NCBI RefSeq assembly: GCF_900107455.1 | Contig: NZ_FNQB01000004.1 | Coordinates: 506,193 to 570,192 of the forward strand | Origin: Asanoa ishikariensis | Lineage (GTDB): Bacteria; Actinomycetota; Actinomycetes; Mycobacteriales; Micromonosporaceae | Length of the DNA stretch: 64,000 nt | Direction of reading: 5' to 3' | In this document: piece by piece, positions 49,051 to 51,147 of the stretch | Layout of the letters: every line of letters starts with the position of its first letter | Position numbering within the stretch: the first letter of the stretch is position 1 | Program-made: the position numbers and the translations under genes | Notes under the pieces: model-generated | Told to the model about the DNA's origin: nothing | Database searches by the model: none | What the model saw: only the letters and a program-made list of their open reading frames with translations

Positions 49051-51147
49051 GTGCAGGACGAGACGCTCGGCGCGCGCTACCGGCTGACCCGCCGGCTGGG
49101 TGCGGGCGGCATGGGCGTCGTCTGGCAGGCGTACGACCGGGTCCTCGATCGCGACGTGGCGGTCAAGCTCCTCGCGCCCCAGTTCGCCCGGGATGCCGAG
49201 TTTCGCCGCCGGATCCTGGCGGAGGCCCGCGCGGCCGGCCGGCTCAGCCACCCGCACATCGCGAGCGTCTACGACTACGGCGAGACGACCGGCCCCGGCG
49301 ACCCGCTCCCGTACGTCGTCATGGAACTGCTCCACGGCCGCTCGCTGGAGCAGCGGCTCAAGCGCGGCCCGATCGGGGTGGAACCGGCCCTGCGGATCTG
49401 CGCCGAGGTGGCCTCCGCGCTCGCCGCCGCGCACGCCCGCGGCGTGGTCCACCGCGACGTCAAACCTGGCAACGTGATGCTGCCGGCGGGCGGCGCCAAG
49501 GTCGTCGACTTCGGACTCGCCGCGGTGGCCGGCGCGCGCGACGCGGCCCCGGGCGAGCTCGTCCTCGGCACGCCGGCCTACCTCGCACCGGAACGGCTAG
49601 ACGGGCGGCCGGTGGTGGCCGCCACCGACGTGTACGCGCTGGCCCTGCTGCTCTACCGCCTGCTCGCCGGCCGGTTGCCCTGGACCGCCGAGACCAGCAC
49701 GCAGATGCTCGAGGCCCACATCTACCTGGAGCCGGAACCGTTGCCGAAGCTGCCCGGCGTGCCGCCGGTCGTCCGGGACCTGCTGAGCCGCTGCCTGGAC
49801 AAGGAGCCGGACGCTCGCCCCGTCAGCCGGGAGGTGACCGTGACGCTGGCCCGCGCGGCCGGGGTCCACGTCCCGCTGGACGGGGCCGACGACGACGAAC
49901 AGGACGAGGACGAGGAGGTGGCCTCGTCCGCTCCGAGCGCGGGCACCACCGCCGACCGCCGGCACCTGCGCGCCGTCCCTGGCAGGCGGCCCCGCGCCGG
50001 GCCGTTCGCGGAGCGGCTCGGCGCCGAGCTCGACGTCGCGCTGGACCACGTCGACCTGCGCCGCCAGGCCAGCGCGATGCTCCGCGAGACAGTCGGGTTC
50101 GACCTGGCGATCTGGGCGGTGCTCGACCCCATGACGCTGATGTGGGCGGCCTGTGTGGTCGACGGCGGGCCGCACGACGAGTCGCTAGAACGCGAGCTGT
50201 TCGTCAACGAGTACGGCCAGGACGACGTGCTCCGGCTGGTCGACCTGGCCGGCGACCAGCGCATCGGGACGCTGGATCTCGCCACCCACGGCGACCCGGC
50301 GCTGAGCCCGAGGTTCCGGGGCATCCTGCGGCCGCGCGGCTTCACCGACGAGCTCCGGGCGTCCTTCCACGACGCCGACGGCACCTGGGGAGCACTGTTC
50401 GCTTACCGGGCCGGAGGCCTGTTCAGCAGCACGGACGTGGCTCAGGTGGCGCCCGCCGGCCGGCTGCTCGGTGCGGCCCTGCACAACGCGCTGGCCCGTG
50501 GGCACGAGGACCCGCCGCCTGCGCCTACGCCCGCGCCCGCTCCGGGCTTGCCGGCCCCGCGTGTCTCGCGGTTCCGGCTGCCCCGACAGCGGCGACCCCG
50601 CCGCACCGACCTCGCCCCGGTCAGCGCGCCGGCGCCCGGCCCGCCCGTGGCCGACTCCGACTCGGGCCGCCTCGTCCTGTCACCGGACGGCCGGCTGCTC
50701 GACGTGACGGCCTCGGCCCGCGGCGTGCTCGACGCGGTGGAGCTCGACCGGGTCGGCACGGCGGTCGCCAAGGGCCGGCGCACCGGGCTGGTCGACACGT
50801 CCGGCCACCTGCGGTACGACGGCCGCTGGCTCGCGTTCCACGCCGTCGACCTGGAGAGCGCGATCGCCGTGAGCGTCGGCCGCATCCGCCCGCACGAGAT
50901 CAGCGCGTTCGTCGTACAGGCCCGCGGTCTCCAGCCCTGGCACGGCGCGATCCTCGGCGCGGTCGCCCGGGGTCGCAACACAAGGCAGATCGCCCGCGAG
51001 CTGAACCTGTCCGTGTACGCGGTCGAGGACGGCCTGACGGCACTGCTGACCGCGTTCCGGGCCAACGGCCGGGCGGAGCTGCTGACCAGCCTGTTCTTCG
51101 ACCACTACGTTCCGTTCCACGCCTCCGACGTCGTCCTGCGCGGCTAG
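49051..51147 (+). CDS. Ser/Thr protein kinase fused to a LuxR-type DNA-binding domain
   Basis: The protein has 698 aa from GTG 49051. Residues 7-270 are a Hanks-type kinase with LGAGGMGVVW, VAVKLL, HRDVKPGNVM, VDFGLA and YLAPERL, all catalytic residues intact. An acidic linker follows, then a GAF-like region (about 335-470, FDLAIWAVLDPMTLMWAACV), a proline-rich linker and a second ligand-type region. The C terminus has a LuxR-like helix-turn-helix (LGAVARGRNTRQIARELNLSV). No membrane segment is visible, so it is soluble. GGAGGGAGG lies upstream of the GTG; TTG 49021 is a less likely start. It may be a one-protein path from sensing to transcription. Confidence 0.85.
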   Translation: MQDETLGARYRLTRRLGAGGMGVVWQAYDRVLDRDVAVKLLAPQFARDAEFRRRILAEARAAGRLSHPHIASVYDYGETTGPGDPLPYVVMELLHGRSLEQRLKRGPIGVEPALRICAEVASALAAAHARGVVHRDVKPGNVMLPAGGAKVVDFGLAAVAGARDAAPGELVLGTPAYLAPERLDGRPVVAATDVYALALLLYRLLAGRLPWTAETSTQMLEAHIYLEPEPLPKLPGVPPVVRDLLSRCLDKEPDARPVSREVTVTLARAAGVHVPLDGADDDEQDEDEEVASSAPSAGTTADRRHLRAVPGRRPRAGPFAERLGAELDVALDHVDLRRQASAMLRETVGFDLAIWAVLDPMTLMWAACVVDGGPHDESLERELFVNEYGQDDVLRLVDLAGDQRIGTLDLATHGDPALSPRFRGILRPRGFTDELRASFHDADGTWGALFAYRAGGLFSSTDVAQVAPAGRLLGAALHNALARGHEDPPPAPTPAPAPGLPAPRVSRFRLPRQRRPRRTDLAPVSAPAPGPPVADSDSGRLVLSPDGRLLDVTASARGVLDAVELDRVGTAVAKGRRTGLVDTSGHLRYDGRWLAFHAVDLESAIAVSVGRIRPHEISAFVVQARGLQPWHGAILGAVARGRNTRQIARELNLSVYAVEDGLTALLTAFRANGRAELLTSLFFDHYVPFHASDVVLRG

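Follow-up and report, generated by a model that had tools for sequence, protein, structure and literature searches.

Soluble kinases that carry regulator-like modules are already known, as are single chains that join a kinase to a regulator, the hybrid histidine kinases. PknK of Mycobacterium tuberculosis, a soluble STAND kinase, has the regulator VirS as a substrate (PMC4601284, PMC4381067). Bacteroides hybrid two-component systems combine a membrane histidine kinase with a transcription-factor module and have DNA binding as their output (PMC11253607). A few literature searches of partial coverage yielded no described kinase-GAF-LuxR fusion, no Ser/Thr kinase combining an altered GAF-PAS-LuxR module with Tad linkage, and nothing on kinase control of actinomycete Tad pili. 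The results presented here reveal such a fused gene in Asanoa ishikariensis, at the end of a Tad/Flp pilus gene cluster. The features of the analyzed DNA (the window, the whole stretch of 64,000 nucleotides) are as follows.

41236-42261, forward strand: TadE/G-like pilus assembly protein
42053-43066, forward strand: rcpC/cpaB
43068-44219, forward strand: cpaE/tadZ (ParA/MinD-like)
44198-45565, forward strand: tadA/cpaF ATPase (T2SSE)
45559-47406, forward strand: tadB (T2SSF, with an N-terminal von Willebrand A (vWA) match ahead)
47388-48311, forward strand: tadC (T2SSF)
48325-48909, reverse strand: REC-LuxR regulator with a pseudo-receiver and an intact HTH, a candidate partner or substrate
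48910-49031, no strand: shared divergent intergenic region, 83-98% identical to other Asanoa species over 122 aligned bases
49032-49040, forward strand: ribosome-binding site GGAGGGAGG, read directly, 10 nt upstream of the GTG
49051-51147, forward strand: kinase-GAF-PAS-like-LuxR-like HTH fused gene (frame reading, Pfam, orthologs)
49078-49836, forward strand: protein kinase domain, residues 10-262, PknA/PknB-like with intact catalytic motifs (Pfam, motifs)
49885-49998, forward strand: linker 1, residues 279-316, an acidic run followed by TTADR (ortholog alignment)
49999-50502, forward strand: GAF domain, residues 317-484, nearest solved fold DosS GAF-A (AlphaFold, Foldseek)
50503-50655, forward strand: linker 2, residues 485-535, mostly predicted disordered, Pro-rich and basic (RVSRFRLPRQRR)
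50656-50910, forward strand: PAS-like domain, residues 536-620 (alignment, AlphaFold)
50935-51105, forward strand: LuxR-like four-helix HTH, residues 629-685, under the Pfam GerE cut-off
51013-51054, forward strand: recognition helix, residues 655-668, in which residues kept in standalone relatives are replaced

The fusion is a single open frame of 698 amino acids that starts with GTG at 49051; third-position GC is high throughout the frame and codon bias is uniform. Its domains run in the order PknA/B-like Ser/Thr kinase, linker, GAF, disordered basic linker, PAS-like and LuxR-like four-helix C-terminus, and hydropathy revealed no transmembrane segment. A family survey by DNA pattern, using the GAF motif FDLAIWAVLDP in 301 genomes of the Micromonosporaceae only, found the motif in 11 genomes, five of Asanoa and six of one other genus, taken as Micromonospora; read backwards, the motif had no match in the same 301 genomes. 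Each of the 11 encodes the kinase-GAF-PAS-HTH chain in full; identity to the window protein is 59-92% in the ten others, and the gene is full length in five of six Asanoa genomes. Within Asanoa, purifying selection is seen in each folded domain, with dN/dS no higher than about 0.3, and linker 1 is nearly free of constraint in the more distant pairs. Retention of the single-chain architecture in 11 genomes of two genera, together with purifying selection, excludes chance, a frameshift or an assembly artefact as its origin. The first-pass annotation had read a kinase, a GAF-like region and a LuxR helix-turn-helix in one soluble chain, a reading that these intact copies and the hydropathy profile bear out. 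The frameshift between two genes that it had named as a possible refutation is not the case, the gene being full length in every one of the 11 genomes.

The kinase domain matches Pfam Pkinase at residues 10-262 (E 3.2e-43; 148.5 bits against a cut-off of 31.7), and its nearest solved structure is PknA (E 8.9e-56). All catalytic motifs are present (GAGGMG at 17-22, VAVK39, E58, HRDVKPGN at 134-141, DFG at 153-155 and APE at 179-181), and the catalytic residues are invariant across orthologs. The fusion has the fold and the P-loop, VAxK, HRD, DFG and APE motifs of a Hanks-type Ser/Thr kinase, and from sequence it is apparently active, as had been proposed earlier. It is not a PknB/PASTA receptor kinase, that NCBIfam profile scoring 261.5 bits against a cut-off of 450 and over the kinase part only, and it does not have the PknK/STAND architecture, with no AAA or STAND match to Pfam in the fusion. 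The stretch of activation loop that separates DFG from GTPAY contains no Ser or Thr in the Asanoa fused proteins. The absent Thr was rejected as a distinguishing trait because paralogs L002 and L003 also lack it and some Micromonospora orthologs carry Thr or Ser. Candidate autophosphorylation sites are the TTADR of linker 1, which among the 11 fused proteins is kept only in the five from Asanoa, and the Ser of RVSRFR in linker 2.

The architecture is unusual. Among the other kinases of its genome, none of the ten scanned with Pfam carries an HTH domain, and visual inspection of the tails of the remaining kinases showed no LuxR-like end. The two closest paralogs, whose kinase domains are 59-61% identical, have transmembrane tails, unlike the fusion. 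Elsewhere in the genome, L102 (1758-7142, reverse strand) encodes a 1795-residue Ser/Thr kinase-AAA-TPR-GAF-GGDEF protein, in which a kinase and a diguanylate cyclase are fused, and the kinases of L003 and L106 carry CBM2 (cellulose-binding) and ricin B lectin modules, respectively.

The AlphaFold model of the C-terminal half, built with 21 sequences (pLDDT 82), comprises a GAF domain, a disordered linker (residues ~501-535), a PAS-like domain and a four-helix HTH with helices at 629-639, 644-650, 655-668 and 674-689. A model of the full-length protein (six sequences, pLDDT 41) was set aside. The top Foldseek matches for the C-terminal half were the GAF domains of M. tuberculosis DosS (E 1.4e-4), and LuxR-type regulators, for example RhlR and VqmA, were among the next. 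The Pfam GerE match at residues 634-678 is weak (E 0.01; 15.9 bits, below the cut-off of 23.5), and its identity as LuxR is secured by a match to the BagY/FevT LuxR regulators (NCBIfam NF041232; residues 590-691, 2e-18) and by alignment with standalone GAF-PAS-LuxR proteins. The domain search suggested in the first-pass annotation recovered the kinase strongly and left GerE below its cut-off; the GAF and PAS-like domains come from the fold and the LuxR assignment from relatedness. The BagY/FevT score, 66-69 bits against a curated cut-off of 700, makes the fusion a distant relative only and places it outside that family. Standalone GAF-PAS-LuxR proteins are common in related actinomycetes, including one in the same genome (L037), and linker 2 is missing from them in the alignment. 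Because their domain order is identical, the C-terminal half looks like an entire BagY/FevT-like regulator that was joined to a kinase, with an extra basic linker. A 658-residue frame containing a GAF-LuxR module (L028) was considered as a second fusion and rejected; no kinase was matched in its first 300 residues, which makes it an ordinary standalone regulator that has a long open frame ahead of it. A plasmid search returned only distant LuxR relatives, and a search of viral contigs returned a single weak kinase match and nothing else.

The HTH of the fused proteins differs from that of its standalone relatives at residues that those relatives keep. When 11 fused proteins were compared position by position with 16 standalone relatives, the latter were found to keep Arg630 (14/16), Glu631, Thr657, Lys663 and Lys668 (each 16/16), and to have His (13/16) or Tyr (3/16) at position 661. 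None of these six is kept in any of the 11 fused proteins, which have W, A or S at 630, H or Q at 631, A, S or D at 657, G at 661, T, M or L at 663 and A at 668. The fusion thus lacks the conserved LuxR/GerE residues (RE; T-V-x-x-H/Y-x-K; K). Lys188 and Lys192, two of the DNA-contacting residues of NarL, would align with positions 659 and 663 of the fusion. GerE scores are 13.1-19.1 bits in six fused proteins, including the window protein, versus 41.6-57.3 bits in the five standalone proteins checked (cut-off 23.5), and the net charge of the recognition helix is -2 to 0 in fused proteins versus -1 to +3 in standalone ones. Within Asanoa the altered helix has hardly changed (dN/dS 0-0.08), which argues that it was kept for a different function rather than left to decay, and the HTH domain probably has another job, such as dimerization. 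An unusual recognition helix does not in itself prevent an HTH domain from binding DNA; given these substitutions, it looks more likely that the HTH-like region lacks DNA-binding activity. Because the 11 fused proteins contrast so cleanly with the 16 standalone ones, the loss of DNA binding can be tested directly.

The Tad context, which the first-pass annotation missed, is the strongest clue to function. The Tad/Flp cluster lies upstream of the fusion, and in 11 of 11 genomes the fused gene follows tadC, in Micromonospora endolithica by only 66 bp. A tadC gene was found in 43 of the 301 family genomes, 42 by a TadC pattern and one more (G171) by tblastn. Every one of the 11 fusions is in a genome with tadC, and the 258 genomes that lack a tadC match have none (Fisher 1.5e-10, with related genomes treated as independent). 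The association shows co-inheritance, not function, because the genomes are related and the genes are linked. The only Asanoa genome without the fusion also has no tadC match, and two genomes of the Micromonospora genus (G174 and G316) have a tadC match and no match to the fusion. Sixteen Tad loci sampled in other genera showed no kinase in the roughly 8 kb that follow tadC. Since the gene is always at the end of the Tad cluster and its DNA-reading helix is altered, it probably controls the pilus by phosphorylation and not by DNA binding. Farther along the window, at 53106-54530 on the reverse strand, is a gene whose product, on visual inspection, is probably secreted and combines lectin-like repeats with a pectate-lyase-like domain.

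The divergent REC-LuxR gene separates tadC from the fusion in Asanoa and in three of six Micromonospora, and is not adjacent to the fusion in M. endolithica and two other Micromonospora. Inspected by eye, its receiver keeps the phospho-Asp and is missing the acidic pair, the switch Thr and the Lys, and its HTH carries the usual TVRTY motif. Relatives follow tadC in several further loci (L091, L092, L095 and L133-L135), and similar genes occur there without a kinase in three loci of other genera (L091, L092 and L095). As a substrate of the fusion, or as a partner that binds DNA for it, the REC-LuxR protein is the obvious candidate; it cannot be the only substrate because three Micromonospora lack the neighboring gene. 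Three conserved pieces of the intergenic region were searched in the window as a possible repeated operator, which was rejected: two had no second copy there and the third had a single one, at chance level. The intergenic search for inverted repeats returned one distant inverted repeat only.

The explanation we favor is a soluble, GAF/PAS-gated Ser/Thr kinase dedicated to the Tad/Flp cluster, with phosphorylation as its output, a proposal for which we judge the chances evenly balanced. The fusion would have arisen when a complete GAF-PAS-LuxR regulator of BagY/FevT type became joined to a PknA/B-like kinase. Its GAF-PAS part may sense a small molecule or redox state and thereby gate the kinase. 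The LuxR-like C-terminus keeps the four-helix fold, probably as a dimerization or docking surface, and has presumably lost the standard mode of DNA reading. The kinase would phosphorylate proteins encoded alongside it, either Tad motor and assembly proteins or, where present, the REC-LuxR regulator. More tentatively, and with somewhat less than even confidence, we suggest that a Ser/Thr kinase took over a transcription factor and put it to a new use, in which the sensor gates phosphorylation and the HTH, retired from its former role, provides an interface between proteins.

The first-pass annotation had suggested that the kinase could control its own DNA binding. Spelled out, this would be a one-chain transcription factor in which autophosphorylation of the HTH or the linkers sets the binding of DNA, possibly within the conserved divergent intergenic region next to the gene. 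The LuxR-derived four-helix HTH with its conserved recognition helix, the strong conservation in Asanoa of the adjoining intergenic region, and the linker Ser and Thr residues adjoining acidic and basic runs are consistent with such a regulator. However, the loss of all six HTH residue equivalents in every fused protein tells against the proposal, as do the low helix charge and GerE scores; M. endolithica has no such intergenic region, and the neighboring REC-LuxR, with its intact HTH, is a better candidate for the DNA binder. We therefore regard self-regulated binding as unlikely. A split transcription factor, in which the altered HTH heterodimerizes with that of REC-LuxR and the kinase phosphorylates REC-LuxR, would account for the intact HTH of the divergent neighbor and the conserved region that the two genes share. 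It would also suit the degenerate receiver, since a receiver without the acidic pair, switch Thr and Lys is unlikely to be under histidine-kinase control. This arrangement is doubtful as well, given that REC-LuxR is not beside the fusion in half of the six Micromonospora and occurs without the kinase in other genera.

It is very improbable that the kinase serves other cellular targets and was merely co-inherited with the Tad cluster. The gene is indeed outside the core Tad genes and absent from the 16 other Tad loci sampled, but its position after tadC is the same in 11 genomes of two genera, and one Asanoa lacks both. That a frameshift or misassembly joined two genes can be dismissed almost entirely; intact copies in separate genomes and the uniform codon bias along the frame argue against an artefact, which the orthologs refute. 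If the favored explanation of a Tad-dedicated kinase is true, a one-component transcription factor became the sensory half of a Ser/Thr kinase after losing its usual DNA-contact residues, and the Tad pili of actinomycetes have a dedicated kinase, and thus kinase-type control.

Finally, the fusion shares features with several known systems and differs from each. The BagY/FevT regulators (NF041232) and the standalone actinomycete GAF-PAS-LuxR proteins have the same domain order and are homologous across its whole C-terminal half, but they have no kinase, a shorter linker and intact HTH residues. PknA/PknB-type actinobacterial kinases have a homologous kinase domain with all motifs in common, whereas the fusion has no transmembrane segment and no PASTA domains, and a sensor/HTH module replaces the extracellular domain. 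Among Tad/Flp clusters, the fusion always follows tadC, and the 16 other loci sampled have no kinase near that gene. PknK is likewise soluble, its C-terminal regulatory module is of a type also found in transcription factors, and it acts on transcription through a regulator; it carries a STAND module where the fusion has GAF-PAS-LuxR. The Bacteroides hybrids also place a kinase and a transcription-factor module in a single chain, but with a membrane histidine kinase and DNA-binding output in contrast to the soluble Ser/Thr kinase and altered HTH of the fusion.
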